Source: Zingiber officinale (Eukaryota; Streptophyta; Magnoliopsida; Zingiberales; Zingiberaceae). Taken from it: a stretch of 64,000 nucleotides of DNA. Made by a program: the position numbers and the translations under genes. This document shows positions 2,686 through 64,000 of the stretch, in pieces (positions within the stretch are counted from its first letter, which is position 1; each line of letters opens with the position of its first letter). The notes under the pieces were generated by a model. It did no database searches. It saw only the letters and a list, made by a program, of their open reading frames with translations, and was not told the origin of the DNA. The stretch covers positions 163,568,209-163,632,208 of the forward strand of contig NC_055988.1 of assembly GCF_018446385.1 (NCBI RefSeq). Direction: 5' to 3'.

Positions 2686-3925
2686 TGTTGGTGCAAGAAG
2701 CATTCGACGATCAAACTTGAATTTTGATAATGGCAAATGATTCAAAGTTAAGATTATTTGTGATTTAATATGTTGAATGAACTTGCAGGAAAAGTCCTAA
2801 GATATTTTAGGCAAAAGTCCTAGCTGCGGTTAGGCAGACAGGAAAACCCTAGGGGGTGGTAACCCTAGGCGGAAAGCCTTGGCGGGTCGAGGTCTTTGGG
2901 CAAAAGTCCTAGAGTCAGATACTCTAGGTGAAAATCCGAGTGTCGCGGATTGGGTGGAAAGTCTGGGCGGGTCGTTGAGCGAATGTCCAACAGAAAGACC
3001 TGAATACTCAGGCACTGAGCAAAAGCCCAGTCGATCTAGAGGATCGAATTGACAACAGGTATACTCTTCTGAGTGGAGTAGGTAAGGGCGCGTTCCCCGC
3101 TAAGGGAACAGTAGGCATCGGTTTGACCTAGGATTTTCGGTCGGAAATTCGAAGTCAAAATCAGGCAGTCCAGTGACTGTCGAACATTTATTTTTATGTT
3201 ATTATTATGTGCTAAACTTTGTTTTACGAGATATGTTGTTATTTTGTGGACTAACGTATCTTGCAGGACGTAAAAAGAACTCAACTTCTCGGATGAACAG
3301 TGTCCGGGGCGCCTCCATGGAGCTTGGAGGCACCTCGGATGCTTTGGAAGAAGGAGTGCGCGAAGTCAAGCTGGAGGCGCCCTCAAGGAGTGTTGAGGCG
3401 CCTCGGATGGGCTTGAAGGCGCCCCCCATGGCATTGGAGGTGCCTTCAAAAGGATGAGCGGCGACTTCTTCAACCCTTATCTTCGCTGCGGAGTTGGCTG
3501 CGTTAAGGGCGCCCTCAATGGGCTTTATAAGGAGGTCTCGAGCAACAACATCAATAATCAAGTTCTAAACAACCTTTCTTCAGCGCACTGCTAACGAGAA
3601 GATCCGGCTAAGCTACAATAAGAACCCGATGACCCAAAGCTGCAAAACTTCAATTCTTTGTTGTCGATATAGCTTTTTCAATACTGTCATTGTAATCATT
3701 CTTGTAATATTTGCACGATTATAGTTGTTGCCCAAAGTAAACGCTCAACGAGCATGAGCCTTGGAGTATGAGTCGTCCAAGGCTCCGAACCAAGTAAATC
3801 TTGGTGTCTTTCTGTGTTCCTTTATTTATTATTCCGCTATGTTATCCGATAAGTTTTCCGAATACGAAAAGTGAAAGCCACGAGCGCTATTCACCCCCCC
3901 CCCTCTAGAGCATCTCGATCCAACA
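2686..3925 (+). repeat. 3' LTR with U3 stem-loops and GGCGCC palindromes
   Basis: A 1240-bp LTR bounded by TGTTGG and CCAACA. From about 2795 to 3035 U3 holds a string of short inverted repeats, each with its own stem, such as CCTAGAGT with ACTCTAGG and AATCCG with CGGATT. From 3306 to 3445 it holds repeated GGCGCC palindromes inside larger imperfect hairpins. A TATA-like TTTATAAGG sits at about 3523. A reverse-strand relative of this LTR is at 9697-11060. Target duplication is not testable because the left end of the element is missing. Confidence 0.7.
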
Positions 3926-4508: not shown

Positions 4509-5625
4509 TTTGTGCAGTTAGCACTAACAGTCTAACTCAAGTTTTGATGAATGACAAAGTAGGTTAAGTTAGTTTCATTGTGATCTAACACTTTGACCAA
4601 GTGTACAGGAGAAGCCCAGCTAGGTCGACGAGCCGAACGGATAGCTGACACGAAGTCCAAATAGTTCGACGGGCTGACCAGATGTCTGACATGAAGCCCA
4701 GCTAGGTCGACGGATTGACCGGATAGTTGGCACGAAGCCCAGCTAGGTCGACAGGCCGACTGAATAGCTGGCACAAAGTCCAGACAGGTCGACGGCCTAA
4801 CCGGATGTCTGACACGAAGTCTAGACAGGTCGAAGGGTTGACCAGACGTCTGGTAGGTAAGTTAAAGTAAGTAACTGGAGGGGAGTGACTGTGAGGATGC
4901 GTTCCCGGAAAGGGAACTTAGGTGTTGATCCAACTTAGAACCATTTCGGAACTCTAAGTTGAGATCCTGACTAGATTCCGATCTCGACGAGACAGAATCT
5001 AATTACTATTTTATTATTATTATAATTGTACTATGCTAACACATTGTTTTGCATGGTAGTTTTGTATTTTACCTTGGACTAACGTTTTCTTGCAAGTTGC
5101 TGGAAAATAGAGGTCCGGGCGCCCGAAATGCAAGTTTTATCCTCTTATCACTTCGCCACGTGGAGCACTCTGGTTGGACGGGTTACGTCACATTTCAGGT
5201 GCCCGAAAGGGATTCGGGCGCCCGGAGCCTCCTATAAAAGGAGGATGCGCCCTGGAGCAAAGAACAATTCACGACAACATTTTCTAACGCTTGCTCTGCT
5301 GTGTTGTGCTCTTGCCACGAAGCTTCTCCGACAATGTGCTTCCTTTCTTCTTCATTCCTTATTATTGTTGGTATTTATACTTTAAAAGCATTTGTAATTT
5401 CACTTGTAATCACATTTTTCGAATTGCTAGTGGATTGTCCAACGAAAGCACTCGATGAGTGCGGGCCTTGGAGTAGGAGTCGATGAAGGCTCCGAACCAA
5501 GTAAAAAATTACTTGTTTTAGCATTGTTCTATTTTCGATTCTATCTTTCCGCTGCGTACTCGATTTTCTACTTGAATTTCTAAATCGCTATTCACCGACC
5601 CTCTAGCGAATTACTCGATCCAACA
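4509..5625 (+). repeat. 5' LTR of the gag-only element
   Basis: About 1.12 kb, ending CCAACA just before the primer-binding site. Order inside: an array of 41-bp stem-loop units (4616-4853), a GTAAGT-rich stretch, a CTAAC plus TTTTCTTGCA stretch near 5080-5097, GGGCGCCCG-type palindromes, a CACGTGG motif near 5158, a TATA box (TATAAAAG at 5233-5240) and the R/U5 part. The 3' LTR at 7055 has the same order. Confidence 0.8.
4616..4853 (+). repeat. Six 41-bp tandem stem-loop units
   Basis: Units start at 4616, 4657, 4698, 4739, 4780 and 4821, exactly 41 bp apart. Each has an outer inverted repeat of about 7 bp (CCAGCTA with TAGCTGG, or CCAGACA with TGTCTGA), an inner GGTC/GACC pair and a linker ending GAAGT or GAAGC. 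Several stems carry mismatches, consistent with age. It is the older homologue of the perfect array at 26701-26979. Confidence 0.8.
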
Positions 5626-5627
5626 AG

Positions 5628-5639
5628 TGGTATCAGAGC
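5628..5639 (+). other. Primer-binding site
   Basis: TGGTATCAGAGC, the standard initiator-methionine tRNA primer site of plant LTR retrotransposons, two bases after the 5' LTR end. Two hairpins follow: 5635-5651 (AGAGCA with TGCTCT, loop TGTAC) and 5655-5670 (TTGGTG with CACCAA, loop CAAC). The first overlaps the site itself. Confidence 0.9.
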
Positions 5640-5905: not shown

Positions 5906-6776
5906 TTGAAGGCTTCAGTACAGTGCGCCCCTCCTATTCAACGGGGACGACTTCCCCTACTGGAGAAGCGAATGGAGGTCTACTTGAAGACCGATTTCGA
6001 CCAATGGTTCAGCGTCACCAGAGGCTACAAGGTGTCGGTCGACAACTCTAGAAATCTACTAGACCTGGAACAGTGGACTCCGGACATGAGAAAGAAATGC
6101 TCGATGGACTTCAAAGCTCTCAACACACTGCAATGCGGGCTAATGAAGGAAGAACTGAACGGAGTGGAATCGCACCAAAATGCGAAAGAATTATGGGATA
6201 AGCTGATCGAACTACACGAAGGAATGAGCGACGCCAAGGTAACTAAGCGTGACCTTCTTTTAAATAAACTATTTAATATCAAAATGCAGGAAGGAGAAAC
6301 AACGAGTCAACTTCATGCGAGGATCAAAGACATCCTCAACGGACTCCATGCGATAGGCCACCAAATGGAAAATAGCGAAGATAACTAAGCGTGATCTTCT
6401 TTTAAATAAACTATTTAATATCAAAATGCGGGAAGGAGAAACAACGAGTCAACTTCATGCGAGGATCAAAGACATCCTCAACGGACTCCACACGATAGGC
6501 CACCAAATGGAAAATAGCGACTTAATCATGTACGCATTAAATGCTTTTTTGCGAAATTCATTACAGGCATATATCGTGGATGGCTACAAAATTTCAAAAA
6601 AATTATCTAAATTGAAACTTGATGAGTTATTCTGTGAACTTGAATTACACGAGCAGACTAATGCTGGAACCGAGAAAGGTATTGCCTTGTTTGCATGTTC
6701 CTCCAAGGAAAGGGAAAAGACCAAGCCTGAACCTGAAGATGAGTCCAATCAGGATAAACCTACTTTTGAAAACTAG
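5906..6776 (+). pseudogene. Retrotransposon gag remnant (UBN2/gag-polypeptide type)
   Basis: The translated pieces contain features of the plant copia-type gag domain: a 'WSVTRGY'-like start, 'AKELWDKLIELHEG', the 'SDAKVTKRDLLLNKLFNIKM' region and the 'MQEGETTSQLHARIKDIL' helix. Gag forms the particle that packages element RNA. No zinc knuckle or pol follows before the polypurine tract. It is broken (a few breaks) and is a fossil of the element at 4509-8191. Confidence 0.75.
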
Positions 6777-7054: not shown

Positions 7055-8191
7055 TTTGTACGGTTAGCACTAACAGTTTAACTCAAGTTTTGATGAATGA
7101 TAAAATAGGTTAAGTTAGTTTCATTGTGATCTAACACTTTGACCAAGTGTGCAGGAGAAGCCCAGCTAGGTCGACGGATCGACCGGATAGCTGGCACGAA
7201 GTCAAGACAGGTCGACGGGCTGACCGGATGTCTGACACAAAGCCCAACTAGGTTGACGGGCCGATTGGATAGTTGCCACGAAGCCCATCTAGGTCGACGG
7301 GTCGATCGAATAGCTGGCACGAAGTCCAGATAGGTCGACGGACTGACCAGATGTCTGGCACGAAGTCCAGACGGGTCGAAGGGCTGCCCAGACGTCTGGG
7401 AGGTAAGTTAAGGTAAGTCACTAGAGGGGAGTGACTGTGAAGACGCGTTCTCGAAAAGGGAACTTAGGCGCCGATCCAACTTAGAATCATTTCGGAACTC
7501 TAAGTTGAGATCCTGACTAGATTCCGGTCTCGACGAGACGGAATCTAATTACTATTTTTTTTATTATAATTATACTATGCTAACACTTTGTTTTGCAGAT
7601 TAGTTTTGTATTTTACTTCGGACTAACGTTTTCTTGTAGGTTGTTGGCAAACAGAGGTTCGGGCACCCGGAAGGGATCCGGGCGCACGGAATGCAAGTTT
7701 TATCCTCTTATCGCTTCGCCATGTGGAGCACTCTGGTTGGACAAGCTACGTCACATTCCAGGAGTCTGGAAGGGATCCGGGTGCCCGGAGCCTCCTATAT
7801 AAGGAGGATGCACCCTGGAACAAAGAACAATTCACGACAACATCTTCTAACGCTTGCTCTGCTATGCTGTGCTCATGCTGCGAAGCTTCTCCGACAACGT
7901 GCTGCCTTTCTTCTTCATTCCTTATTGTTGTCGGTATTTCTACTTTAAAAGCATTTGTAATTTTACTTGTAATCATATTTTTCGAACTGCTAGTGGATTG
8001 CCGAACGAAAGCACTCGACGAGTGCGGGCTTTGGAGTAGGAGTCGATGAAGGCTTCGAACCAAGTAAAAAATTATTTGTGTTAGCATTATTCTAATTTCA
8101 ATTCTATCTTTCCGCTGCATACTCGATTTTCTACTTGAATTTATAAATCGCTATTCACCCCCCCCCCTCTAGCGAATTACTCGATCCAACA
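7055..8191 (+). repeat. 3' LTR of the gag-only element
   Basis: About 1.14 kb, preceded by a purine tract and ending CCAACA at 8191. It aligns along its whole length with 4509-5625. The TATA equivalent is TATATAAGG at about 7797. A C-rich run just before the end (about 8158-8167) is longer than in the 5' LTR. Confidence 0.8.
7162..7399 (+). repeat. Six 41-bp tandem stem-loop units (3' LTR copy)
   Basis: Units start at 7162, 7203, 7244, 7285, 7326 and 7367, again spaced by 41 bp. Outer stems are CCAGCTA/TAGCTGG-like or CCAGACG/CGTCTGG-like, with scattered mismatches. The order of stem types matches the 5' LTR array in most but not all units. Confidence 0.8.
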
Positions 8192-9290
8192 GAGTGCCTC
8201 CACTTCCTTTGTTCGAGGTCAATATTCTACTCACATGACTTAATTAGACTATATTTCTTGTGCACAGTAATACCAATTGTTATGACAAAAAAAATCACAT
8301 ATCTTCACAATGGTATGATATTGTCCACTTTAGACCTAAGCTCTTATGATTTTATTTTTGGATTTTACTCATCATATCTCATACCAATGGAGATATCTTC
8401 ATCTTTTAAATACATGATTTTTTAATGTCTCTCCAATATGAGACTTTGATTATATTCTCAATAATTCTTCCCTCAAATGAAGGACTACCATTCTCTCATG
8501 ATTTGGACCTCCCTGTAAGTATTTCATCACTCTTAACCTACTCTAGGTCTCCCTACAAACATTCGGCAATTCTTAACCTGCTTCAGGCTCCCTGCAAGCA
8601 TTTAGCCACTCTCTACCTGCTCCGGGCCTCCCCTCAACTTCATTCAAGACCATCCCACATGGTATATGGTCTGAACCATGACTTTGATACTATTTATTAG
8701 GACTAAAAGAATTCATATATTTTCATAATGGTATGATATTGTCCACTTTGAGTTTAAACCCTCATGTTTTATTTTTAAATTTTACCAAAAAATTTCATAC
8801 CAATGGAGATATTTTCATCTTTTAAACTCATGGTCTTTTCCATGTCTTTCTAATGTGAGACTTTGATTGTATTCCCAACAATCCTCCCCTCAAACGAAGG
8901 ACCACCATTAATCTAATGGTTTGGGCCTCTTAGCAAGTATCTAATGACTCTTGACTTGCTTTAGGTCTCCCCATAAATATTCAATCACTCTTAACCTACT
9001 TCAGGACTTTTCGTAAATATTTGATCACTCTTGACCTGCTATAGGCCTTCCCTCAATTTCATTCAAAATCATTCCACATGACATTTGATTTAGATCATAA
9101 CTCTGATACCAATTGTTGTAACTGAAGAAATTTAGATATCATATCTCCAAAATAATATGATATTGTCCACTTTGAGTCTAAGTCCTAATAATTTTATTTT
9201 TAGGCTTTATCCAAAAGGCCTCATACCAATGGAAATATCTTTCCCTTATAAGCCCATGATTTTTCTCATATATTTTCAATAAGTGGTTTT
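8192..9290 (-). mobile_element. Tandem TRIM-like LTR cluster, reverse strand
   Basis: Three diverged copies of one short LTR-like unit follow each other at about 420-bp spacing. The shared marker GATATTGTCCACTTT is near 8310, 8730 and 9153. On the minus strand each unit starts near TGTTGGGAATACAATC (8881) or its worn equivalent (about 8461). It ends next to a primer-site-like motif, the reverse of TGGTATCAGAG, near 9103-9114, with worn versions near 8683 and 8262. LTRs are about 185 bp and internal parts about 235 bp with no coding capacity. This fits a terminal-repeat retrotransposon in miniature arranged as LTR-internal-LTR-internal-LTR. The internal parts hold their own short C/T-rich repeats. 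Confidence 0.6.
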
Positions 9291-9696: not shown

Positions 9697-12125
9697 TGTA
9701 GGATCGAAAGCGCTAGAGGGGGGGTGTGAATGACGCTCGTGGCTTTCACTTATGTTTTTGAAATACGCAACGGAATAGAAGTAAATAAAAAACAATCGCT
9801 AACACCAAGAGTTTTACTTGGTTCAGAGCCTGTGGCGACTCATACTCCAAGCCGACACTCGTTGAGTGTTTACTTTAGTCAATTCACTATCAATCCGAAA
9901 ATATTATAAAAGGAGTATTACAATTTAAATGCAATAAATAAAAGTATACCAATAACTCAAGAATGGAGAAAGTCGAGCTTGTGGTTGTCGGAGTAGTGTT
10001 ACAGCTTTGCCGGATTGTTTCATTAGTAGTGCGCAGTAGAAGAATTATGAATTCAAGTGTTGTTTAAGCCTCTGCTCGAGACAGGCTTATATAGTCTATT
10101 GAGGGCACTCTCAACCGCATGGAAGGCGCCTCCAACCCCGTCGAAGTCGCAGCGTCGATAAGCTCTGCTTCCCTCGTTGCTTATCCACCTGACGGCGCCT
10201 CCAATCTTCATGGAGGGCGCCCTCTGCCCAGTGTTCAGGGTGCCTCCAAGCTCCATAGAGGGTGCCCTCTGCCTTGCTGCGCGGAGGTCTTTGACTAGTG
10301 CACCCGAGGCGCCTCCAAGCTCCATGGAGGGCGCCTCAAGTACTGTTCATCCGAGACTTTACATCTTTTTCACTCTCTACAAGATGTGTTAGTCCAAAAT
10401 ACAAAACATATCTTGCAAAATAGAGTTAAACACAATCAAATCAGATTAAGATAAATATTTGACAGTCACCGGACTGTCCAATTTTGATTTTATATTTCTC
10501 TTCCGGAAACCCTAGGTTGAACTGACGCCTACTGTTCTCTCACCGAGGAATGCATCCTCACCTACTTCACTCAGGAGAGTTTACCTGTTGTCAGCTCGGT
10601 CCTCCAGACCGATTGGACTTTTCACCTAGGGTTACCACCCCCTAGGACCTTGGGTTACCACCCCTTAGGATTTTCCTCACCCTAGGGTTACCACCCCCTA
10701 TGATTTTCCTCAGCCTAGGGTTTTTACCCCTAGGACCTAAGGTTACCATCCCCTAGGGTTTTTCTTCACCCAGGGTTACCATCCCCTGAGACCTAAGGTT
10801 GCCGCCCCTTAGGGTTTTCCACCACTTGGGTTACCACCCCCTAGGACCTAAGGTTACCGCCCCTTAGGGTTTCTATCACCTAGGGTTACCACCCCTAGGG
10901 TTTTTCACCTGCCTAACCACAGCTAGGACTTTTGCGTAAGATAACTTAGGACTTTCCTGCAAAGTCAACAAACCTTGTTAGATAACAAGACAACTTAACT
11001 TTGAACCCTTTGACATAATCAAAACACAGGTTCGATCGTCAGATGTTTCCCGCACCAACAATCTTCTATTTTTTTATTATGATAACACGGTTCAAAGTTA
11101 AGTAAAACATAACAAGATAATTAAGGTATTTAAGCATGAGCATAACTAAAATACTTCATAAAAATTTCCTTATGCTCTTCTTTTCATAAAAATTATGTTT
11201 AAATTCTTAACTTTAACTTTACTCTTCTCCTTTGATATAAATAAAAAATAATACTAAATAGAGAGAAGGTTGTAAAGATAAAAAAAAATTTAAATCTTTA
11301 GCTCCCCCTGAAAGGCAACACTTAGCTTCGAAAATAATTTCTTTGAAAAACACTTAGCTAAATTAGAAATTCTGTGAAAATACTTGTTTTTTCAACAAAA
11401 ACGTAGATAAACTTAGTCTTGTAGTGCCCCATCTTACTATACTCAAAGCATTTGATGTGGCTCTTCCCACTCTACTTGGTGGATGAGGTGGAGGATTGAG
11501 CTTCTAAGATCTCCTCTTCCTTGGATGACTTCTCTTCCTCTTCACTCGAAGATGTGGACGATTCTACTTCCTCTTCCCTTGAAGATGTGGATGACACTTC
11601 CTCATTTTCCTTCTCCTCCTCAGATGTTGAACACGTGTCAACATCTGATTGGTCCTTCTCCTCTTAGACTAATGAGCTCTTTTCCTTGGGCTCTTCCACT
11701 CCTTGGAGTTTTGTAGGATCTTTATGAAATGCAATGATCTTTTTCCAAAGATCACATGCATTCTTGTAATTACCTACATTCGACAACACGTTAGGAGATA
11801 ATAAATTCAATAGAATTTTCGTTTCCTCCTTATCCACCTCTGAATTGCTCCCTTTGCTCCTTGGTCCAATATCGAGGTTGGAGACGATTCCCCTTCTTGT
11901 CCGTTGGAGTCTTGAATGGTTCTTCCAAAGTCATCCAATGGTTTCACTCCATTTGAAACCAAATCTCCAACCGCTTCCTCCAATACTCGAAATCATTCTT
12001 CTCGTATGGATGTGAGATCTGAATATCTCATCCAAGAAGTCATTCGGACTCCATCTTTCTCTAGCGTTTTGCTCCCTCGACGATTAGTCCGTAGAAGAAT
12101 GATATGTTCTGATACCACTTGTTGG
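9697..12125 (-). mobile_element. Gag/LTR retrotransposon remnant, reverse strand
   Basis: Minus-strand order from high to low coordinate: a primer-site-like TGGTATCAGAAC at about 12109-12120; a gag-like coding remnant whose antisense shows serine/glutamate-rich repeats (about 11480-12100); an AT-rich untranslated part with a polypyrimidine complement of a polypurine tract; then an LTR from 11060 (TGTTGGTGCGGGAAAC) to 9697. The LTR resembles 2686-3925. Only one LTR is found; the sequence beyond 12125 does not match its end. Incomplete, non-autonomous and old. Confidence 0.6.
10625..10910 (-). repeat. CCTAGG/CCTAAGG stem-loop array in LTR U3
   Basis: About ten short inverted repeats in tandem with a GTTACCACC-like loop. 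Stems vary but stay complementary: CCTAGGG with CCCTAGG, and CCTAAGG with CCTTAGG. Spacers are T-rich (GGTTTTTC, GGATTTTCC). It belongs to the LTR at 9697-11060; the corresponding part of 2686-3925 lies near 2845-2880. Confidence 0.75.
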
Positions 12126-25769: not shown

Positions 25770-26592
25770 TCATACAAAGGGTTGTTGTGCTAGAGTAAAA
25801 TACCCCTTATGATTGGCGATATTGAGCTGCTTGAGATGAACAATATCACCTTTTGCTTTAATATTACTCTCTTCTCTCTTTCCTGTTGGTGCAATTGTCC
25901 TTGGATCCAGGTTGAGCAGTTTGACTAAACTCAAGTTGGCTCGAGCTTGAGTTTCGATGTTTGGCAACATGTGAGAGAAAAGTCAAGTTGATCAAGGGAG
26001 AATCAGATACTTGTTTAGAAAAATCTTAACTAGAGGTCAGGTAACGAGAAGTCCTAATTAGAGGTTAGGTAACGAAAAAATCTTAGTGAGTAAAGTTAAG
26101 TAGTGGAAGTCCTAATTGAAGGTTAGACAATAGAAAAGCATAATCAGTGAAGCTAGGCAGTGGAAGTCTTAACGGGGCTAGGCAAGGAAAAAGTCTAAGT
26201 GAGTCAAAGGTTAATCGAAAACTTGGTGAAAAAGCCTTGGTAGGTGAAGGATGGTCGGATGCAGGCCTTATGTCAATCAATTAGGGCAATTGATTAAAAG
26301 TGTTTTTGCATGAAAATAGAAGACTTTGGAATCGATTAGAGCAACTGATTTGGACTTCATCAATTGATTATAGTAATTGATTAAAGCTTGTTTACAAGAG
26401 CACAATAGGTGCTTGAATCGATTAAGAGATTCTCGAAGAAAGCTTCTAAATCAATTGGGTAATCGACTAATCGATTGATATGACTCACCAATCGATTAGT
26501 CAGGTGAAAATAGTCATTCTGTAGGCTTTGAAGGTTAAACTGACGTGACAATCGATTGGGGGCAAGCCTAATCAATTAGGAGGCGTCGAAAC
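25770..26592 (+). mobile_element. Older LTR fragment with ATCGATT motifs, target of a later insertion
   Basis: Contains spaced inverted repeats (CCTAA with TTAGG; CAATTGATTA and AATCGATTAG types) and repeated AATCGATTG decamers at about 26330-26575, a style also seen in the reverse-strand LTR at 62609-64000. It appears to resume at 34727-34764 (AACCCTAGAAAAGGGGTTT), so the element at 26593-34721 was inserted into it with duplication of GAAAC. The true ends of this older LTR are not resolved. Confidence 0.5.
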
Positions 26593-26700
26593 TGTTGGTG
26601 CGGGTAGCATTAACGGTCTAACCTAGGTTTTGATGAATGACAAATAGGTTAAGTTAGTTGTGTTGTTGTCTGACACTTTGATCAAGTGTGCAGGAAAAGT

Positions 26701-26979
26701 CCAGACAGGTCGACGGGCTGACCGGATGTCTGGCACGAAGTCCAGCTAGGTCGATGGGCTGACCGGATAGCTGGCAAGAAGTCCAAGCGGGTCGAGGGGC
26801 TGACCGGACGCTTGGCGAGAAGTCCAGCTAGGTCGACGGGCTGACCGGATAGCTGGCGAGAAGTCCAAGCGGGTCGACGGGCTGACCGGACGCTTGGCGA
26901 GAAGTCCAGCTAGGTCGACGGGCTGACCGGATAGCTGGCGAGAAGTCCAGACGGGTCGAAGGGCTGACCGGACGTCTGG
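26701..26979 (+). repeat. Seven 41-bp tandem stem-loop units with covarying stems
   Basis: Units start at 26701, 26742, 26783, 26824, 26865, 26906 and 26947. Each is a 33-nt hairpin: a 7-bp outer stem, the inner stem GGTC/GACC around an 8-nt loop (GACGGGCT or one change from it), and a GGA bulge on the 3' side. Hairpins are joined by 8-nt linkers ending GAAGT. Outer stems in order are CCAGACA/TGTCTGG, CCAGCTA/TAGCTGG, CCAAGCG/CGCTTGG, CCAGCTA/TAGCTGG, CCAAGCG/CGCTTGG, CCAGCTA/TAGCTGG and CCAGACG/CGTCTGG. All seven are perfectly paired. Confidence 0.95.
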
Positions 26980-26982
26980 CAG

Positions 26983-27210
26983 GTAAGTAAGGTAAGTCAC
27001 TGGAGGGGAGTGACTGCGAGGACGCGTTCCCGGGAAGGGAACATTAGGCGTCGATCCGGCTTAGATCCATTTCGGATATCTAAGTCGAGATCGTGACTAG
27101 ATTCCGGTCTCGGAAAGACGGAATCTAAGTCATACTTTGCTTATCTATAAAACTGTGCTAACAATCTTTGCTGCAGGGTACATTTGCCTCGGACTAACCT
27201 TTTCTTGCAG
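26983..27210 (+). other. Intron-like segment in LTR U3
   Basis: AG/GTAAGT at 26982-26988, with a second GTAAGT ten bases on, is a near-ideal plant splice donor. GACTAAC, a branch-point-like motif, followed by CTTTTCTTGCAG ending at 27210 is a near-ideal acceptor, although the branch-to-acceptor distance is short. The same pair brackets the same segment in the 3' LTR (about 33949-34167), and related forms occur in the older element (about 4855-5097 and 7409-7641). Splicing itself is inference. Confidence 0.4.
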
Positions 27211-27743
27211 GAGAAGGACTTTCTGGAGAAGAGGGGTCCGGGCGCCCGGAGGGGATCCGGGCGCCCGGAGGTCCGGGCGCCCGGGAGGCAAGTTTTATCC
27301 TGATTGTGCGTCGCCACGTGGAGCTCACTGGTTGGACCTGCCACGTCTCACCAGGGTGCCTGGAAGGGATCCGGGGCGCCCTGAGCTTCATATAAAAGAA
27401 GGGGCAAGAGTGGAGCTTAATATCAACTAAGAATCCAAGATCTGCTGCTCTGTGCTCTTGCGACGCTACGAAAAGCTCTCCGACTCAGTGCTGGTTTTGT
27501 TTCAATTCTATTGTCGGTATTTTCTTTATTTGTCAATTCTTGTACTTAACTCTGTAATATTCGAATTGATAGTGATTGTCCAACGAAAGTGGTCAAGGAC
27601 CACGGGCCTTCGAGTAGGAGTCGTCACAGGCTCCGAACGAAGTAAAAAATAACTGTGTTCGTTTACCTTTCCGCTGCGTTTAAACTCTTGTTTTTTCGAA
27701 TCGATATTCACCCCCCCTCTATCGAATCTAACGGTCCTACAAG

Positions 27744-27755
27744 TGGTATCAGAGC
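27744..27755 (+). other. Primer-binding site with adjoining hairpins
   Basis: TGGTATCAGAGC, the initiator-Met tRNA primer site. A hairpin at 27751-27767 (AGAGC with GCTCT; loop AGGTACC, which contains the palindrome GGTACC) overlaps its 3' end. A second hairpin lies at 27771-27786 (TTGGTG with CACCAA, loop CAAC). Both are conserved in the older element at 5635-5670. Confidence 0.9.
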
Positions 27756-28091
27756 AGGTACCGCTCTGATTTGGTGCAACCACCAATCAGGCAAAGGGGG
27801 GACTTTTTGAAAGAAAAATTAAATATCGTTTGTCTTTAAAATAAAACCTTACGCCTTTCGTTTTTTCCCTCCAAAACTGTTTTTGAAAAATACATCGTCA
27901 TCTTTTCACTATTATTTAGTATCGACAAAATATTACATTTTCAAAAATTTGAGATAATATTTTTTATTAATATTTTAATAATATTTTATTATTTTTTTAA
28001 AAAAAAATTAGTGAAATATTATTTTTTCCAGCACTGCTAATCCAAGACCAAGTCTTGGGATTTTGTCTTTGTTTCATTGTGTGCAAGAACA

Positions 28092-29264
28092 ATGTCTTTT
28101 CAAGAAGGATGGAACCCCAATGAACCACCACCGTACGATGAAGATTTCAACTACTAGAGGCGAAGAATGGAATGCTTCTTAGGAAGCGTAGATATCGATT
28201 ATATGCTAATATTGAAAAAACCTTCTCAGAACTCGGAACTGAATAAAAACGTAAGTAAAATTATTTGTAATATTTTACCTAACAATATCATATGCAGACT
28301 AGAAAAATACAAGAATGCATATGAGTTGTGGACCCAGTTGATCAAGCTTCACGAGACGCCAATGGAGCTAGAAGATCAAGTTAAAGTCGAATCCGGACTC
28401 GAGTCAGATCCAACGGAGAAGCCTGCTGAATTAGGGGTTGCGCTCAAGGTTAGTAATATTTACCAAAACACCCTTGCTAGTAGTAGTTTAAAATATGTGC
28501 ATGTTAATTTGGATATATCTGAAAGTATATGTGAAAATAGTGTACATGACAATACTTGCGAAAATACCCCTAGGATATTTTCTGATAAAACAAATATAAT
28601 TAATTCAGAAAATACAGAAAATACCCCTAGGATATTTTCTGATAAAACAAATATAATTAATTTAGAAAATACAGAAAATCTGAAAATAATTAATAAATCT
28701 AAAAATTCAAATTTAAACCTAAACAAATTTGAAAATTCAAACAAAAAGGATGACAAGGTCAATATCAATCTAGACACAATTAATAAATTGTTTAATAATC
28801 TAGACAATATCAATCTAGAAAATTCTATCCAAACCCAAGATAATTTAATTAACAAAAAATTAAATTTTAATGATAAGACTTATTTAATAAATTCCACTAA
28901 TTATATCAACTTAAAAGGTAAAGAAAATATAAGGATAAAATCAAACACTTTGATAAAATCAAAACGGAAGTTAACAAACTTAAAATTAAATGTTAAAGAT
29001 AACATATTAAACAAAAATAATCTAGAAAATTCAAAATTAACAATTAATAAAAAGTTAAAAGATAAACCCTTAAAGAAATATAATTCAAACAATTTAATTA
29101 ACTCAAAATTAAATAAAAACCTAAACTTTAAAAATAAGCTACTAAAGAAAGATAAGTCAATTAACCCAATAAAATTAAAATTGAAAGAAAATTTAAATAT
29201 TAAATATACTCTTTTAAAGAAAGATAATTTGACCAATTTAATTAATTCAAAATTAAAAACTTAA
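28092..29264 (+). pseudogene. Gag region with a long Asn/Lys/Leu-rich tail
   Basis: The first part resembles plant retrotransposon gag (an SFQEGW-like start and a KYKNAYELWTQLIKLHETPM helix). From about 28500 the open frame becomes very AT-rich and low-complexity, with N, K, L and I dominating and repeated LINSKL and LKKD motifs. It includes a duplicated segment with NTPRIFSDKTNIIN at about 28567 and 28620. One frame stays open from 28167 to 29264 (365 residues). Its function, if any, beyond particle formation is unknown. The gag is broken at its start region; it is treated as a fossil. Confidence 0.65.
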
Positions 29265-29379
29265 ATTTAAATTACAAATTAAACATTAAAACTTAACTAA
29301 AACTAACTCTAATTATACAAGAAATCTTAAAAATAAAAATCAACATTTTAGGGGGAGGCTCCAGAATAGCTGGCACCTC

Positions 29380-29462
29380 CAAAAATAATTTACCCGACAG
29401 GGTAACCGAAACAAACTTACCCGGTAGGGTACCCAAAAACCAACCTACCTGGCAGGGTAGTT
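29380..29462 (+). repeat. Three short tandem TACCC...GGGTA hairpins
   Basis: TTACCC/GGGTAA with loop GACA, TACCC/GGGTA with loop GGTA, and CTACC/GGTAG with loop TGGCAG-like sequence, separated by about 30 bases each. They follow the gag region in the non-coding interior and repeat, on a smaller scale, the style of the U3 stem-loops. Confidence 0.65.
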
Positions 29463-30054
29463 AGGAATAGAATAAACAGGGACAAAAGTTTAACTTGACA
29501 AGTAGTACTGGTGAAGTTTTGGATGATAGTACGTTGGGGAAGCTTGGGCATCGCATGTCTAGAAAGATATGACTTCGATCTGGTGCATTTGGCCAAGTGG
29601 AACTGACCGAAGCTACCCCTTACGGATCCTAACTAGGTAGACCAAGGTTTGGTACTAAGCTCCGTGGATAGGACTATTCGGAAAACCTCGAAGGGTTGGT
29701 TACTTCTAATGATGTCCAGGTGACTCACCAAGCTCAGAAGTTTATCCGAAGAATGCCTATTTGTTGAGACCAAAGCTAAACCTGAATCTAACATAAGTTA
29801 AACCAAACTCTATAATTAAATCTAATTCATCTCACAAAATTATAGGATTCCCTGATTGATAATCTAGATCGGGTGAGATGAATAAGGATTAAATTAAATA
29901 ATTTTCAAATTAAAATTAATTTTCAAATTTCAAATTAAATTAAAATTAATTAAAATTAAATTTCAAATTTCAAATTAAATTAAAATTAATTTTCAAATTT
30001 CAAATTAAATTAAATTTAATTAAAATTAAATTTCAAATTTCAAATTCAAATTAT

Positions 30055-31850
30055 AATAACTTTAAAAACCATTTTAAAAATTCTTTAAAAACTATTTTAA
30101 AAATTCTTTAAAAACTATATTTAAAAATTATTTTCAAAATTCTTTAAAAACTATTTTAAAAAATTCTTTAAAAACTATTTTAAAAAATTCTTTAAAATCT
30201 ATTTTAAAAATTCTTTAAAAAAAAACTATTTTAAAAATTCTTTAAAAAATATTTTAAAAATTCTTTAAAAAACTATTTTAAAAAATTCTTTAAAAACTAT
30301 TTTAAAAAATTCTTTAAAATCTATTTTAAAAATTCTTTAAAAAAAAAAACTATTTTAAAAATTCTTTAAAAACTATTTTAAAAATTCTATAAAATCTATT
30401 TTAAAAATTCTTTAAAAAAAACTATTTTAAAAATTCTTTAAAAACTATATTTAAAAATCATTTTAAAAATTCTTTAAAAACTATTTTTAAAAAATTCTTT
30501 AAAAACTATTTTAAAAATTCTTTAAAAACTATTTTAAAAATTCTTTAAAATCTATTTTAAAAATTCTTTAAAAACTATTTTAAAAATTCTTTAAAAACTA
30601 TATTTAAAAATTATTTTCAAAATTCTTTAAAATCTATTTTAAAAATTCTTTAAAAACTATTTTAAAAATTCTTTAAAATCATTTTAAAAATTCTTTAACA
30701 ACTATTTTAAAAATTCTTTAAAATCTATTTTAAAAATTCTGTAAAAACTATTTTAAAAATTCTTTAAAATCTATTTTAAAAATTCTTTAAAAACTATTTT
30801 AAAAATTCTTTAAAAACTATTTTTAAAAATTCTTTAAAAAACTATTTTAAAAAATTCTTTAAAAACTATTTTAAAAATTCTTTAAAATCTATTTTAAAAA
30901 TTCTTTAAAAAACAATTTTAAAAATTCTTTAAAAACTATTTTAAAAATTATTTAAAATCTATTTTAAAAATTCTTTAAAAACTATATTTAAAAATTATTT
31001 TCAAAATTCTTTAAAATCTATTTTAAAAATTCTTTAAAAACTATTTTAAAAATTCTTTAAAATCTATTTTAAAAATTCTTTAAAAACTATTTTAAAAATT
31101 CTTTAAAAAACTATTTTAAAAATTATTATTTTAAAACTATTTTAAAAATTCTTTAAAAACTATTTTAAAATTCTTTAAAAATTTTAAAAACAATTTTAAA
31201 AATTCTTTAAAAACTATTTTTAAAATTCTTTAAAACTATTTTAAAAATTCTTTAAAAACTATTTTTAAAATTCTTTAAAACTATTTTTAAAATTCTTTAA
31301 GAATTATTTGAAAAATTCTTTAAAAACTATTTGTAAAATTCTTTAAAAACTATTTTTGAAATTCTTTAAAAACTATTTTTAAATTTCTTTAAAAACTATT
31401 TTTAAAATTCTTTAAAAACTATTTTTAAAATTCTTTAAAAACTTTTAAAAATTCTTTAAAACTCTTTAAAAAAATCCTTTTAAAAATTATTTTAAAACAT
31501 TTTAAAAATTATTTTAAAAACTCTTTTAAAAATCATTTTAAACTTTAAAAAATTATTTTAAAAATTATTTTAAAACATTTTAAAAACTATTTTAAAAATC
31601 ATTTTAAACTTTAAAAAATTCTTTTAAAAAAATTATTTTAAAACATTTTAAAAATTATTTTAAAAACTCTTTTAAAAAATCATTTAAAAAAAAAAACTTT
31701 AAAAATTCTTTTAAAAAATTCTTTTAAAACCTTTTAAAAATTATTGTTATTTTAAAAATTATTTTAACTTAAAAATTATTTAAAAAAAAAAATTTAAAAA
31801 TCATTTAAAAAATATTTTAAAAATCATTTTAAAACTATCTAAAAATTTTG
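30055..31850. repeat. AT-rich tandem repeat, about 23-bp unit, about 1.8 kb
   Basis: The basic unit is close to AATTCTTTAAAAACTATTTT plus AAA, repeated some 60-70 times with small length changes (A/T run expansion, TCT for ACT). From about 31440 it grades into irregular TTTTAAAA-rich sequence. TTTAAA/TTTTAAAA cores recur every 11-12 bp, close to one helical turn. It is preceded by simple repeats of a TTCAAATTTCAAATT kind (29905-30050). It lies wholly inside the element at 26593-34721. Confidence 0.95.
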
Positions 31851-33561
31851 TATCATTTTGAATGAAATTTTGTTAACTTAAAAATAGTAATAATAAATTA
31901 TTTCTATAGATTATTTTCACTTTAAAAATTATTATTTTGACTTTAAACTCATTTTTAATCTTAAACATCATTTTAACCTTAAAATTAATTTTTAATTTGA
32001 CTTAACTAAAAATTAAATCTTAAATTAAAACTTAATATTGAAATTAAAATTAAAATTAAAATTTTTAACTTAGAACTTGAAATTTAATTTAAACTTAAAT
32101 TAACCACTAATATTAATTTAAATCTAAAATCAAAACTGAATCAAACATATGTTAATTGACATAAAACATATTATAAAAATCATTTTAAATTCCTTTTAAA
32201 TGCTGTTTTAGTAATCCCTTTAAATTTTTTTTTAATAATCATAATTATAACTAACACTTTCATTGACCAGCTCAATCAAGTAATATGAAATTTAAATTAT
32301 TTCACTAAGTATTAAATTATTAAATCAAGTGAAAACTAATCAATAAATTATTGATAATGGTTAACTGTTATTGAATTAATAAAATCTTATCTTATTTAAC
32401 CTTAAACTAAAGTTAAGCACCTGAATCTAAAATTAATTAATAATTGATTAATCAAATTCAAATAAACAGTTATACCAAGGATACAGAGATAATAATATAT
32501 GTATTACTAAATTAGACAAATGTGTTAGGGCTTTGAAATTTAACACAACCAAACCTTAGTATTAAAGGGAAGATATTAAATTAAGGGGAGTAACCAATTC
32601 AGGGGGAGGTTCAATTTCTTTTAAATCCCCTATAAAGATTAATAAATAAGGAGGATTAATAAATTAAAGGAATATCAAATTAAAGGAATATCAAATTCAA
32701 GGGGAAGTTTATTTTTTAATTATCTCCTTAAGCGTTATTTTTTTTAATCTTCTCTTTAAAATCTCTCTAGAAAATTCTACCTCATTTAAAAAATAATAAT
32801 AATAATAATACTTTGAATATTTTTAGCAAATATTTTCAAACTTTTAAGTATCAAGTTCAGGGGGAGAAATTAATTAAAATTTTGTGTGTTTGAAAAATAC
32901 TTTTTTACATCTATTTTAAAACTAACTTATTTTTAAAACACCAGTTTTCAAAAAGTTAAATTTAACTAAGTTTAATCCCACCTAATTTTCAAACCTGATT
33001 TGAAAAATTAACTATTTCCAAAATTAGCCTTAAAAATTAATTTTGGCAAAAATTTTATTTCTTGAAAAGTTTAATTTTTGCTTTGTTTGAAAAATCGAAG
33101 TTGAAAAATTTACCTTTTTGAAAATTAAATGTTACTTAAACATAAAAAGTAAATTTGAAAAACCTGTCTTGAAAATTTCTACACGCTTGAAAAGTTAAAC
33201 TTGATTAACTTTAACTTTTCAAAACTCAACTTGTCTATTGAAATTTTGAAATTAATTTAAGTCAACTTGACTATTTTTTAACTTGGTGTTAAAAATTGCA
33301 CTTTTATCTTTCAAATTTAGAACCAAACTTAGTTATCTTTCAAAATTTGATTACCTGTTACAGTAAGTCTTCACTATGATTAGTTACCTTTGTTCATTTT
33401 TTGATGAATGTCAAAGGGGGAGGAGGGTTAGGTGGTTAAGTTAGCTAAACCAATTTGAAAATACAAACTAACAAACTTTAAAACCACATAAATGCATGTT
33501 GTTTCTTGCATATGTTTTCACTAACTTAACCAGGTTGTCATTCTATCAAAAAGGGGGAGAT
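31851..33561 (+). mobile_element. 3' untranslated interior of the young gag-only element
   Basis: AT-rich with no coding remnant. Purine tracts such as GGGGGAGG occur near 32601 and 33416-33425, in the setting 'TTTTGATGAATGTCAAAGGG'; a very similar block precedes the 3' LTR of the older element (about 6888-6915). The polypurine tract at 33549-33560 adjoins the LTR. Confidence 0.8.
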
Positions 33562-34721
33562 TGTTGGTGCGGGTAGCACTAACGGTCTAACCCAAGTTTT
33601 GATGAATGACAAATAGGTTAAGTTAGTTGTGTTGTTGTCTGACACTTTGATCAAGTGTGCAGGAAAAGTCCAGACAGGTCGACGGGCTGACCGGATGTCT
33701 GGCACGAAGTCCAGCTAGGTCGATGGGCTGACCGGATAGCTGGCAAGAAGTCCAAGCGGGTCGACGGGCTGACCGGACGCTTGGCGAGAAGTCCAGCTAG
33801 GTCGACGGGCTGACCGGATAGCTGGCGAGAAGTCCAAGCGGGTCGACGGGCTGACCGGACGCTTGGCGAGAAGTCCAGCTAGGTCGACGGGCTGACCGGA
33901 TAGCTGGCGAGAAGGCCAAGCGGGGCGACGGGCTGACCGGACGCTTGGGTAAGTCACTGGAGGGGAGTGACTGCGAGGACGCGTTCCCGGGAAGGGAACA
34001 TTAGGCGTCGATCCGGCTTAGATCCATTTCGGATATCTAAGTCGAGATCGTGACTAGATTCCGGTCTCGGAAAGACGGAATCTAAGTCATACTTTGCTTA
34101 TCTATAAAACTGTGCTAACAATCTTTGCTGCAGGGTACATTTGCCTCGGACTAACCTTTTCTTGCAGGAGAAGGACTTTCTGGAGAAGAGGGGTCCGGGC
34201 GCCCGGAGGGGATCCGGGCGCCCGGAGGTCCGGGCGCCCGGAAGGGATCCGGGCGCCCGGGAGGCAAGTTTTATCCTGATTGTGCGTCGCCACGTGGAGC
34301 TCACTGGTTGGACCTGCCACGTCTCACCAGGGCGCCTGGAAGGGATCCGGGGCGCCCTGAGCTTCATATAAAAGAAGGGGCAAGAGTGGAGCTTAATATC
34401 AACTAAGAATCCAAGATCTGCTGCTCTGTGCTCTTGCGACGCTACGAAAAGCTCTCCGACTCAGTGCTGGTTTTGTTTCAATTCTATTGTCGGTATTTTC
34501 TTTATCTGTCAATTCTTGTACTTAACTCTGTAATATTCGAATTGATAGTGATTGCCCAACGAAAGTGGTCAAGGACCACGGGCCTTCGAGTAGGAGTCGT
34601 CACAGGCTCCGAACGAAGTAAAAAACAACTGTGTTCGTTTACCTTTCCGCTGCGTTTAAACTCTTGTTTTTTCGAATCGATATTCACCCCCCCCCCCTCT
34701 ATCGAATCTAACGGTCCTACA
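33562..34721 (+). repeat. 3' LTR of the young gag-only element
   Basis: The LTR is 1160 bp. It differs from the 5' LTR mainly in repeats: four instead of three CCGGGCGCCCGG palindromes (34195, 34214, 34230, 34249), a longer C-run near 34687-34697, and a different last stem-loop unit. The TATA box is TATAAAAG at about 34367-34374. Confidence 0.92.
33670..33948 (+). repeat. Seven 41-bp stem-loop units, 3' LTR copy
   Basis: Units start at 33670, 33711, 33752, 33793, 33834, 33875 and 33916. Units 1-6 carry the same stem series as the 5' LTR. Unit 7 carries CCAAGCG/CGCTTGG where the 5' LTR has CCAGACG/CGTCTGG, and its inner stem has one mismatch (GGGC against GACC). Confidence 0.93.
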
Positions 34722-34763
34722 GAAACAACCCTAGAAAAGGGGTTTAACGAGATTTGAAGCACA

Positions 34764-53085: not shown

Positions 53086-54709
53086 ATTGGATCGCGACGG
53101 CCGGCTAGAAAGGGGGTTGAATAGCCTGAAAATACAAAAACAAAAACCAACCTTTCTCGAACTCTCAACAGAACACTTACATAAATAAATTAAACAAATA
53201 AACTAAAAGTAAGAGATAAAAGAGATTTACTTGGATACGACCGAAGAGGTTGTTAATCCAAGGAAAATGAAGCGCACTAGAATATCTCCTTCAGGCGGAG
53301 AAGCCTCTTATAGCGTTTAAGCACAGAAACAGAAGCTCAACTCTAAATTTAAAGCATACAAGCGTTGGAATTACAATTCTTGAGTTGTTGAAAAAGCTTC
53401 TGGACCAAGGCTATATTTATAGCTTTGGTCGGGGCACCCTGAGGGTTTCGGGCGCCCTGGGGGGATAAACTTTATCACCCAACGTTCAGATCGAGTCAAA
53501 ACTCGATCCGATCAAAAAGTCAACTCCGGGCGCCCCGGACAGCTCCGAGCGTCTCGGAGGGAAAAGTCAACCCCATTGACTTTTTCCAGCCCGGGTCTTC
53601 TGCTCCGGCTCTGTTTGCCTCAGACCGAGTCTTCCGCTCGCTTGGGTGATCTCTGTCATCCGGAATAGGGCTCACCCGAACCCAACTTCTGGTCTTCTCG
53701 AGCAGGCTTCCGCTCCGGCTTCTCGTCCCTCAGAATCGCCGCGTGCTTCCTTCTCGTCCTCCAGCGTACTCATCCGCAGTCTTCGTCCCTCGGTCACACC
53801 CTGTGCCGACCTTCTCGCTAGCTGCGTCTCTTGCTCCTCGAGCAGTCTTCCGCCGGTGTACTCTTCCGCAGCGCCTCGTCCCTCGGACGCACTGCGTGCC
53901 GTCCTTCTCACTAGCTGCGTCTTCCGCTCGACTACCTGTGCTCCTAAGCTCCTGCACACTTAGACACAAGGTTAAACAACACAGGACCTAACTTAACTTG
54001 TTGATCATACCAAAACAACCTTAGGGTTCCAACAATCTTCCCCTTTTTGATGTGATCAACCCCTCAACGTTCCCTCAACGTTCCCTGAACGTTCAGATCG
54101 AGTCAAAACTCGATCCAGTCAAGAAGTCAACTCCGAGCACTCGGAAGGGTTCCAGGCACCCCAAAGGGGTCCGGGGCGCCCCGGACTGTTCAGGGCGCCC
54201 CGGACTGTTCCGGGCGCCCCGGACAGCTCCGGGCACCCCGGAGGGAACAGTCAACCCCGTTGACTTTTTCCAGCCCGGGTCTTCTACTCCGGCTTCGTTC
54301 GCCTCAGACCGAGTCTTCCGCTCGCTTGGATGATCTCTGTCATCCGGAATAGGGTTCACCCGAACCCAACTTCCGGTTTTCTAGAGCAGGTTTCCGTTCC
54401 GGCTTCTCGTCCCTCGGAATCGCCGCGTGCTTCCTTCTCGTCCACCAACGTATTCATCCGCAGTTTTCGTGTCTCGGTTACACCCCGTGCCGACCTTCTT
54501 GCTAGCTGCGTCTCTTGCTCCTCGAGTAGTCTTCCGCTCCGGCTTCTTGTCCATTGGAACCATCGCACGTTTCCTTCTCGTCCGCCAATGTATTCTTCCG
54601 CTCGACTACCTGTGCTCCTAAGCTCCTGCACACTTAGACAAAATGTTAAAACAACACAGGATCTAACTTAACTTGTTGATCACACCAAAACAACCTTGGG
54701 GTTCCAACA
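53086..54709 (-). mobile_element. Related LTR element inserted in reverse into the 3' LTR
   Basis: Two LTR copies lie in reverse orientation: one complete-looking (54034 down to about 53086, starting TGTTGGAACCC and ending near CTAGCCGGCCGTC) and one incomplete (54709 down to about 54060). Between them is only a polypurine-type stretch (complement of 54036-54050). The LTRs belong to the same broad family as the host element but a different subfamily, with GGGCGCCCCGG-type palindromes (54170-54240). A target duplication could not be settled. Broken. Confidence 0.65.
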
Positions 54710-62608: not shown

Positions 62609-63109
62609 TGTTAGGGTCGAAATGTAGCTAGAGGGGGGGTTGAATAGCTCGTCGCGATCGTTGTGCTCGTCGTTGCTCGCTTCTTGGGATGATGTGCAAC
62701 GGAAATACAAGAAACACAACCAACAACGCTAACTCTAGGGATTTACTTGGTATCCACCTCAAGAAGAGATGACTAGTCCAAGGATCCACACACTCACGCA
62801 CCCTCCACTATAAAAACACTTCTTCTCAGTAACTACCGAAGGCGGAGAAGCCTTACAACCTCACAATACAACAATGAGAAAGAAAGAAGCAAAATACAAA
62901 TGAATCTTACAAGATTACAATGAAAACCTTAGCTTCTTCTTCTTTTTGTTGCAACTCGTCTCTTGACTTGGATGAGCCTCCAAGAACCTTCAAGAACTGG
63001 CGGTGAGGAAGAAAAGATCGCTATGGAGAGCTGCTGTGATCGCCCGTGGAGAAGAGATGAAGAAGTGCCGAAGGAATCGCACGCCAACGGCTAAAACCTG
63101 CGCCAACGG

Positions 63110-63482: not shown

Positions 63483-63680
63483 AAAGTAGAAAACTGGATA
63501 GAGCTTGAAATTAGCTTCGTTTTGCATCCGAGATCATCTCATTCCGATATCCGAGTCAAAAGTTATGGCATTCGGAAGTTTACTACGTCCAAACTTCCTA
63601 GTTCCATGCCAACTCCCTATTGGACTTACGACCGCTAAGAATTCGGTCAACTTTTGACCCATCTGGACTTTCTCTTTGCG

Positions 63681-63799
63681 CCAAGTGTTCGGTCAATCTT
63701 GACCCACTTGGACTTACCATCTCATGCCAAATGTCCGGTCCTCCATGACCCACTTGGACTTCCAAACACCAGGTGTCCGGTCAACCTTGACCCACCTAG
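63681..63799 (-). repeat. Stem-loops with variable outer stem and GGTC/GACC core
   Basis: Three clear units at 63681-63711, 63727-63757 and 63769-63799, and a weaker one at about 63634. Read on plus, the outer stems are CCAAGTG/CACTTGG, CCAAATG/CACTTGG (one wobble-type mismatch) and CCAGGTG/CACCTAG. The inner stem GGTC/GACC surrounds six bases, and a three-base bulge (TTC or TCC) is on the 5' side. On the minus strand this is the same layout as the 41-bp units of the gag-only elements. Confidence 0.85.
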
Positions 63800-63810
63800 A
63801 TTTCCACATG

Positions 63811-63999
63811 CCTGACTTCACTCACCAAGTCCTTCCATCTGCCTAGCTTCACTCACTAGGACTTCCATCTGCCTGACTTCACTCACCAGGACTTTCACCT
63901 AGCTTCAACCACTAGGATTTTCACCTGGCTTCACTCACCAGGATTTTTCTTCTGCCTAGCTTCACTCACTAGGTCTTTCACCTGGCTTCCCTCACCAAG
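63811..63999 (-). repeat. Alternating CCTAG/CTAGG and CCTGG/CCAGG hairpins
   Basis: Units of 19 bases at 63842, 63872, 63898, 63924, 63955 and 63981, plus a first one at about 63811. Stems are CCTAG/CTAGG (63842, 63898, 63955) or CCTGG/CCAGG (63924; 63872 and 63981 with one mismatch), with loop CTTCACTCA or close to it. Unit types alternate along the array. Confidence 0.9.
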
Positions 64000-64000
64000 A

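Follow-up and report, generated by a model that had tools for sequence, protein, structure and literature searches.

Tandem repeats in the U3 region of long terminal repeats (LTRs), as in retroviral enhancers and tobacco Tnt1, have been described with a role in transcription (PMC3601003). RNA export elements, CTE and RTE, are described from simple retroviruses and the mouse IAP (PMC4829213, PMC2674570), and hairpins produced by template switching have been reported for rRNA and microRNA genes (PMC8794818). In plants, the Gypsy elements Ogre and Retand carry tandem repeats that are a source of satellites (PMC7004042, PMC11963269). Copia elements account for 33.66 % of the ginger genome (PMC8342452). 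Here, a stretch of 64,000 nucleotides from Zingiber officinale (NC_055988.1, 163,568,209 to 163,632,208; the window) was analysed, and an array of hairpins within the U3 of one of its LTR retrotransposons, element B, was compared with other copies in the genome.

Seven 33-nt hairpins, read directly from the forward strand, occupy 26701..26979 in the U3 of the 5′ LTR of element B, starting at 26701, 26742, 26783, 26824, 26865, 26906, and 26947, a spacing of exactly 41 bp. Their outer stems are, in order, CCAGACA, CCAGCTA, CCAAGCG, CCAGCTA, CCAAGCG, CCAGCTA, and CCAGACG. As the initial annotation had reported, these four stem sequences are Watson-Crick paired at 7/7 positions in every unit, and the inner stem GGTC/GACC and the GGA bulge are identical across all seven. 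Neighbouring units differ at up to 4/7 stem pairs at once, with cores that are nearly identical. A matching array of seven units is present in the 3′ LTR (33670..33948, forward strand), again with the outer stem 7/7 paired in all seven; its last unit is of the CCAAGCG type, with GGGC as the inner 5′ strand, so that the inner stem is broken. This last unit has a stem type, an inner stem, and a linker that do not match those of the 5′ LTR (26697-26990 compared with 33666-33960), a difference that is a whole-unit exchange during or after insertion. The 3′ LTR is also without 12 bases that include a donor-like motif, and the rest of the two LTRs is nearly identical. The folding energy of the 5′ array alone has a z of -1.5, and its stem fraction with a laxer hairpin caller (0.35) reaches but does not exceed the maximum of 30 shuffles; these scores are weak because the sequence is GC-rich and the units can pair with one another. 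A search of the whole window against Rfam gave no match at the gathering score, and an exact search of viral contigs for the 19-nt core found none.

Element B (26593..34721, forward strand; 8,129 bp) was delimited by its LTR match and by a flanking 5-bp target duplication, GAAAC, at 26588-26592 and 34722-34726. The 5′ LTR (26593..27741, forward strand; 1,149 bp) and the 3′ LTR (33562..34721, forward strand, from the LTR match; 1,160 bp) are 95.7 % identical over 1172 aligned columns, with 15 mismatches plus gaps, and they start with TG and end with CA (TGTTGG...CCTACA), as in Copia LTR retrotransposons. A TATA-like TATAAAAG lies at 27391 in the 5′ LTR, and the U3, with its border to R placed from this motif only, would run to about 27415, followed by R-U5. 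The primer site TGGTATCAGAGC at 27744-27755, after the 5′ LTR, presumably matches tRNA-Met, and the purine tract AAAAAGGGGGAGAT precedes the 3′ LTR start at 33562. Neither the 368-aa frame of element B itself nor the 367-aa frame of locus L014 has a Pfam match. Copia-type Gag (PF14223) was found in relatives, namely element A (1e-13) and locus L018 (4.5e-16), with a match below the cut-off in L010 (2.4e-05), and judged from its sequence and these relatives element B is a Copia-type LTR retrotransposon. Its internal part looks degenerate or non-autonomous. Within it there is an AT-rich tandem array of 1.8 kb (30060-31847; 23-bp unit, about 73 copies), at which the GC content of a 2-kb bin is 0.088. 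In the sister elements L018 (5903-6403) and L010 (3242-4345), a frame between the LTRs has a weak match to Transposase_32 (PF20167), below the family cut-off. The initial annotation knew of no named element of this form; the element does belong to a known order, Copia, but a search of open-licence full texts found none that describes covarying arrays of hairpins in the LTRs of plants, which is a weak negative.

The exact 19-nt core is present in 41,825 copies (21,013 + 20,812) in the 3.09-Gb ginger genome, and the core read backwards in 0 copies. Units were sampled by the core alone (5 mismatches allowed). The window and 33 stretches from the leading 10 Mb of contig 1 supplied 44 arrays and 214 units, a count that includes 18 units with at most 4/7 pairs, several of them in broken register. 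Among the 1498 stem pairs, 1347 are Watson-Crick, 45 G.U, 46 A.C, and 60 other, and 130 units have perfect stems; most sampled units are therefore not mismatched. Shuffling the 3′ arms gave a mean of 954 pairs and 36 perfect stems (maximum 52), and shuffling the arms within arrays 1014 pairs and 47 perfect stems (maximum 69). After removal of identical copies and of units with more than 3 core mismatches, the 134 distinct units had a standard-pair fraction of 0.901 and 221 both-side cells. This is far above the permuted control (mean 0.739, maximum 0.760; at most 116 cells) and the control in which the partner was slid by 1-3 positions (0.200-0.373; at most 32 cells). Neither of the two results that the initial annotation had named as refuting a maintained fold, a majority of mismatched stems or arm changes no more correlated than under neutrality, occurred in this sample.

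In 125 units each arm is identical to that of one of the four main types, and in 124 of these the two arms match. It had been proposed that the arms change together while the core hardly changes, and this pattern holds in the sample; it fits both a selected fold and the copying of one arm from the other. The sole mismatched unit, CCAGCTA with CGCTTGG in locus L019, is a chimera as expected from unit exchange. The better-kept arrays often begin with CCAGACA and end with CCAGACG, and their middle units switch between CCAGCTA and CCAAGCG; array size ranges from 1 to 8 core matches, and there is a higher-order period of 82 bp. Perfect stems one pair away from the main types also exist (CCAAACG/CGTTTGG, CCAACTA/TAGTTGG, CCAGATA/TATCTGG, CCAGATG/CATCTGG, and CTAAGCG/CGCTTAG), therefore a stepwise path is possible.

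At insertion an element has identical LTRs, and any difference between the two represents later change. For 19 LTR pairs, every hairpin that a strand-symmetric score called in one or both copies was compared. The differing stem sites were Watson-Crick in one copy and broken in the other at 187 sites, Watson-Crick in both at 7, and broken in both at 7. The agreeing sites comprised 2609 Watson-Crick, 49 G.U, 32 A.C, and 21 other pairs, although this high Watson-Crick share is partly by construction, since a hairpin was required in at least one LTR. For units found by core or loop, the agreeing sites were Watson-Crick in 321/324 (element B core) and 222/227 (E type), in overlapping sets that kept only units with at least 4/7 pairs, in 24/24 for the GGGCTCGGTAGCTCGT type, and in 284/328 for the TGAGTGAAG type, false matches included. 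LTR pairs lose pairing and lineages retain it; decay after insertion thus breaks pairs, and the variation between lineages keeps them. Since the arms covary and the change after insertion is uncompensated, base pairing is very probably maintained in the active lineages, by whatever means.

Hairpins are also found outside the array. The U3 of element B (26593-27390) contains 15 perfect hairpins, counting stems of 6 bp or longer, with a total of 111 stem bp compared with 19.2 in 200 dinucleotide shuffles (sd 9.6, maximum 53). The R-U5 has 25 stem bp against 8 in shuffles (maximum 28). The leader after the 5′ LTR is enriched (50 against 21.5, maximum 41) and the stretch before the 3′ LTR is not (92 against 78.6), therefore the hairpins of element B are not restricted to its 3′ part. 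The two family E elements tested do show enrichment ahead of the 3′ LTR, at 52 and 64 stem bp compared with 15 (maxima 38 and 43). Across the window, 29 of 160 bins of 400 bp had a z of at least 3 (12 shuffles each), and 16 or 17 of these overlap LTRs A to E by position.

On the forward strand of the 5′ LTR, single-copy hairpins are formed by TAACCTA/TAGGTTA near the LTR start (26619..26651), ACACTT/AAGTGT (26673..26689), AGTCACT/AGTGACT (26995..27015), GTTCCC/GGGAAC (27026..27042), CGGCTTAGAT/ATCTAAGTCG (27057..27087), and TAGATTCCG/CGGAATCTA (27098..27127); those between the array and the promoter are conserved. The CGGCTTAGAT/ATCTAAGTCG stem has covarying pairs in 22 LTR copies: one pair is G-C in 15, A-T in 5, G.T in 1, and A.C in 1, the adjoining pair is G.T in 14, A-T in 7, and T.T in 1, and the innermost pair, often broken, is T-A in 11, A.C in 5, T.G in 5, and A.A in 1. 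This single-copy covariation rests on few independent events. Two copies of a promoter-proximal palindrome, TCCGGGCGCCCGGA, follow at 27237..27269 (forward strand). Such palindromes are family-specific (TCCGGGCGCCCGGA, CAATCGATTG, GATCGATC) and occur in LTRs or LTR-like stretches at 27231-27290, 34188-34260, 54174-54242, and 63030-63560.

The initial annotation described one array type, which is real, but its scope was too narrow: at least four further hairpin types occupy the U3 of related LTR families, making at least five in all. Element A is an older relative of element B, with 88 %-identical LTRs (4509-5629 and 7055-8196) and arrays of six units in each (4616..4853 and 7162..7399, forward strand), the stems of which have partly decayed. 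A 142-bp tandem duplication in element A (6233-6516; 96 % identical) overlaps its Copia Gag frame. Different hairpin arrays are present at the same LTR position in families C (2795..3055, forward strand; different loops and stems), D (10600..10945, reverse strand; CCTAGGGG-TGGTAA-CCCTAGG type), and E (63630..64000, reverse strand; CCTRG-TGAGTGAAG-CYAGG units followed by the GGTC...GACC-GGA fold on different outer stems). In family E, hairpins of CCTGG- or CCTAG-TGAGTGAAG-CCAGG or CTAGG are accompanied by CCAAGC-AGGGA-GCTTGG, CCTAAC-TGGGAT-GTTAGG, and CGGAGA- or CAGAGA-GGGCTCGGTAGCTCGT-TCTCCG or TCTCTG, and the element B-type fold, with new outer stems, follows. The family E core GGTCAAGGTTGACCGGA has 11,219 + 11,625 genome copies.

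The inner fold was sought in the E loci and the window as GRTC, 6-10 bases, and GAYC plus three bases, with both members of LTR pairs counted. There were 857 matches, 127 of which had at least 6/7 outer pairs, including 94 perfect stems and 12 different outer stems. In these 127 the bulge was GGA (97), AGA (18), GAA (9), or other (3), the loops were of 6, 8, or 9 bases, and the inner stem was GGTC/GACC (101), GATC/GATC (14), GGTC/GATC (11, G.U), or GATC/GACC (1, A.C). The family D arms CCTAGGGG or CCTAAGGG with matching 3′ arms gave 65,119 genome matches with a part-degenerate pattern; the first 100 listed are mostly Watson-Crick, with 2 G.U and 2 A.C. For the TGAGTGAAG type, 126 stems were perfect among 223 loop-selected matches, false ones included, against 47 when shuffled. 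Genome-wide, with the other four pairs and the loop of this type held fixed, one stem pair was G-C in 110,714 matches, A-T in 99,394, G.T in 7,846, and A.C in 4,783, or 210,108 paired against 12,629 unpaired. Four unit patterns alone sum to 352,525 genome matches. At G000:C1:2653197-2653829 (L016), TGAGTGAAG-type units lie near an element B-type core on one strand, as if hairpin types had been exchanged between families.

These data are best explained by selection for pairing, to which template switching may contribute. The overall explanation that we favour, with confidence just short of even, is that the U3 is a string of hairpins with its pairing kept, that the sense RNA is selected, and that the string recruits protein. 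In a large group of Copia LTR retrotransposons the U3 is a string of short hairpins, both tandem and single-copy, and comparison among copies shows that active lineages keep the pairing as the arm sequences drift. In the genomic RNA, the U3 copy from the 3′ LTR would be close to the 3′ end, so that its hairpins, about 5 to 20 with single-stranded, purine-rich linkers between them, would make up a structured 3′ untranslated domain. The conserved cores, which are the GGTC/GACC inner stem with its three-base bulge here and fixed loops elsewhere, look like repeated protein-binding modules, and the free outer stems may be clamps around them. Most likely, although this is speculation, the array recruits many copies of a host or Gag protein, and this protein may handle the unspliced genomic RNA through export, protection, or packaging. 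A more general proposal, held a little more tentatively, is of a retroelement lineage in which the U3, and in some families the adjoining non-coding sequence, consists of some 15 to 30 independent hairpins in a row, drawn from at least five types, with very many arm sequences allowed provided that they pair. This modular structured-RNA domain would have diversified by type swapping, with several hundred thousand units in one plant genome.

Whether the sense RNA is the molecule under selection was addressed with array segments, of which there were 16 candidates, 14 past the length filter in the energy test and 13 in the z-score and base-composition tests. The unpaired bases of the 13 arrays are 35 % A, 38 % G, 18 % T, and 10 % C, or 73 % purine (63-78 % per array), compared with 43-55 % purine in four other stretches of the element B LTR. 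No reversed linker is present among 393 units (179, 205, and 9 of three types), 35 of which have no readable linker. Local folding z was stronger for the sense strand in 7 of the 13 segments, for the antisense in 5, and equal in 1; for the element B array it was -5.2 on the antisense and -2.3 on the sense strand. Lower energy of the sense strand, seen in 14/14 segments, was rejected as evidence for RNA, the sense not being favoured against each strand's own shuffles. With the lax hairpin caller the stem fraction was above all 30 shuffles in 9/14 segments, and not in those of B, A, D, the window's E array, and L064.

Wobble pairs give a divided picture. Genome-wide, G.U exceeds A.C in two comparisons (7,846 against 4,783 and 1,894 against 1,449), but not in the element B type (42 against 63), and this ratio was dropped as a decisive test for RNA because the genome counts disagree between types. 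Lineage-fixed G.U and A.C pairs number 4 and 0 in the E set and 1 and 1 in the element B core set, which overlap, and 8 and 2 in the recognisable TGAGTGAAG hairpins. The G.U excess in lineage-fixed units and in the inner stems (11 against 1) is suggestive only, given shared ancestry. RNA helices are expected to hold more G.U pairs than the lineage-fixed stems here, which are almost pure Watson-Crick. The purine-rich unpaired bases, the absence of reversed linkers, the exon-like borders of the arrays, and the enrichment before the 3′ LTR in E elements suggest sense RNA; the missing sense preference in folding, the inconsistent G.U bias, the few fixed G.U pairs, and the hairpins of the element B leader speak against it. 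That sense RNA is the selected molecule is thus close to an even call.

The rival that survives best is arm copying, in which template switching during reverse transcription or replication lets one arm template the other, so that imperfect inverted repeats are re-perfected and both arms are altered in one event; hairpins would then build up where no coding constraint applies, with little or no function. It explains the perfect stems well, as it does the nearly complete Watson-Crick pairing at LTR-agreeing sites of the E-type and element B core units and the change of up to 4/7 pairs together between adjacent units with nearly identical cores. The U3 is moreover full of unrelated hairpins, promoter palindromes included, and the leader of element B is enriched too. 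A published study describes template switching as a process that both creates and maintains RNA hairpins (PMC8794818). The asymmetric three-base bulge and the non-palindromic loops, which persist, are explained less well. Single-pair steps exist as perfect stems (CCAAACG, CCAGATA, CCAACTA), and the R-U5 of the same LTR is less hairpin-rich than its U3. Loop inversion, a mark of template switching, is absent among the 393 units, although this is a weak argument because the published work also found inversions to be rare (PMC8794818). With 7 sites Watson-Crick in both copies of LTR pairs against 187 breaks, any arm copying would be rare per insertion. As a replacement for selection it is rather unlikely, although the two could act together.

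A splicing role is quite unlikely, although the borders of the arrays are suited to it. The array would then be an internal exon or a structured splicing enhancer in read-through or genomic transcripts. On the forward strand of element B, an acceptor-like TGTGCAG stands directly before the array (26691..26693), a donor-like CAG|GTAAGT, read from the sequence, directly after it (26980..26988), and a branch-point and acceptor-like GGACTAACCTTTTCTTGCAG further on (27191..27210); the acceptor-like and branch-point-like motifs were judged by what we take to be the splice consensus. Acceptor-like CAG|GA before the arrays and donor-like AG|GTAAG or AG|GTAWA after them are found in families A, B, C, and D. 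Despite a variable AT-rich spacer, the branch-point and acceptor motif persists in 27 LTR copies, which were picked with this motif itself (up to 5 mismatches). In A and B, an GGACTAAC...TTGCAG motif is retained across the variable AT-rich spacer (within 26641-27212 in B). Against such a role, the motifs are short and were partly used as anchors, and the donor-like motif is lost from the 3′ LTR of element B in the 12-base gap. Splice-like signals would also excise or rearrange the array, a poor fit to a role in genomic RNA unless splicing is partial.

Slightly less probable again is selection at the level of DNA, with the hairpins as cruciforms or as dyad sites for dimeric DNA-binding proteins and the 5′ LTR as the working copy. 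The sequence GGTCAA...TTGACC contains what we take to be two inverted W-box motifs, the arrays lie upstream of a TATA-like box, the folding scores have no strand preference, and the genome counts of G.U and A.C are of the same order. However, dyad sites are fixed in sequence, yet here outer arms of many sequences stay complementary; the loops and linkers are strand-asymmetric, and the element B-type core is without one of the two W-box motifs (GGTCGA). Improbable, and already weakened as a sole explanation, is block shuffling, in which a few hairpin units had a single origin and are passed around whole by unequal crossing-over, so that the arms covary under no present constraint: the whole-unit replacement between the element B LTRs, the arrays of 1 to 8 core matches, and the 82-bp period do show unit exchange, but exchange inside the 19-nt core should give chimeras and only 1 of 125 recognisable units is chimeric (82-bp exchange steps would hide some), no source is provided for new complementary arms, yet 12 perfect outer stems surround one kind of inner stem, and one single-copy stem covaries too.

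Should selection act on the fold in RNA, these arrays would be a very large natural experiment on hairpin evolution, with the LTR pairs as an internal neutral clock. The route of compensated changes, by one-step template switching or in two steps via G.U or A.C, would be testable, and an RNA-level function in plant Copia elements would be indicated.

Among the known systems, the tandem repeats of Ogre and Retand sit in the 3′ non-coding part, and the ginger arrays likewise are tandem arrays in a non-coding part of a plant LTR element. They are, however, in Copia elements, and covarying hairpins are not mentioned in the available parts of the accounts of Ogre and Retand. Perfect stems and multi-base compensated changes are shared with template-switch hairpins; unlike those reported, the ginger hairpins form LTR arrays, and loop inversions are absent among the 393 units. 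CTE and RTE have constant core motifs with variable stems and are cis-acting structured RNAs of unspliced retroelement RNA, as the ginger array would be if it acts as RNA; it differs in its many more tandem copies and its plant host, and we know of no sequence relation between them. Like the U3 repeats of Tnt1 and retroviruses, the ginger units are direct repeats of variable number upstream of a TATA box. A repeat of the Tnt1 type would be expected to be conserved over its whole length as a factor-binding site, whereas in ginger the 19-nt core is conserved and the outer stems vary with their pairing kept; each ginger unit forms a hairpin whose complementary arms are free in sequence, and unrelated hairpin types stand side by side.
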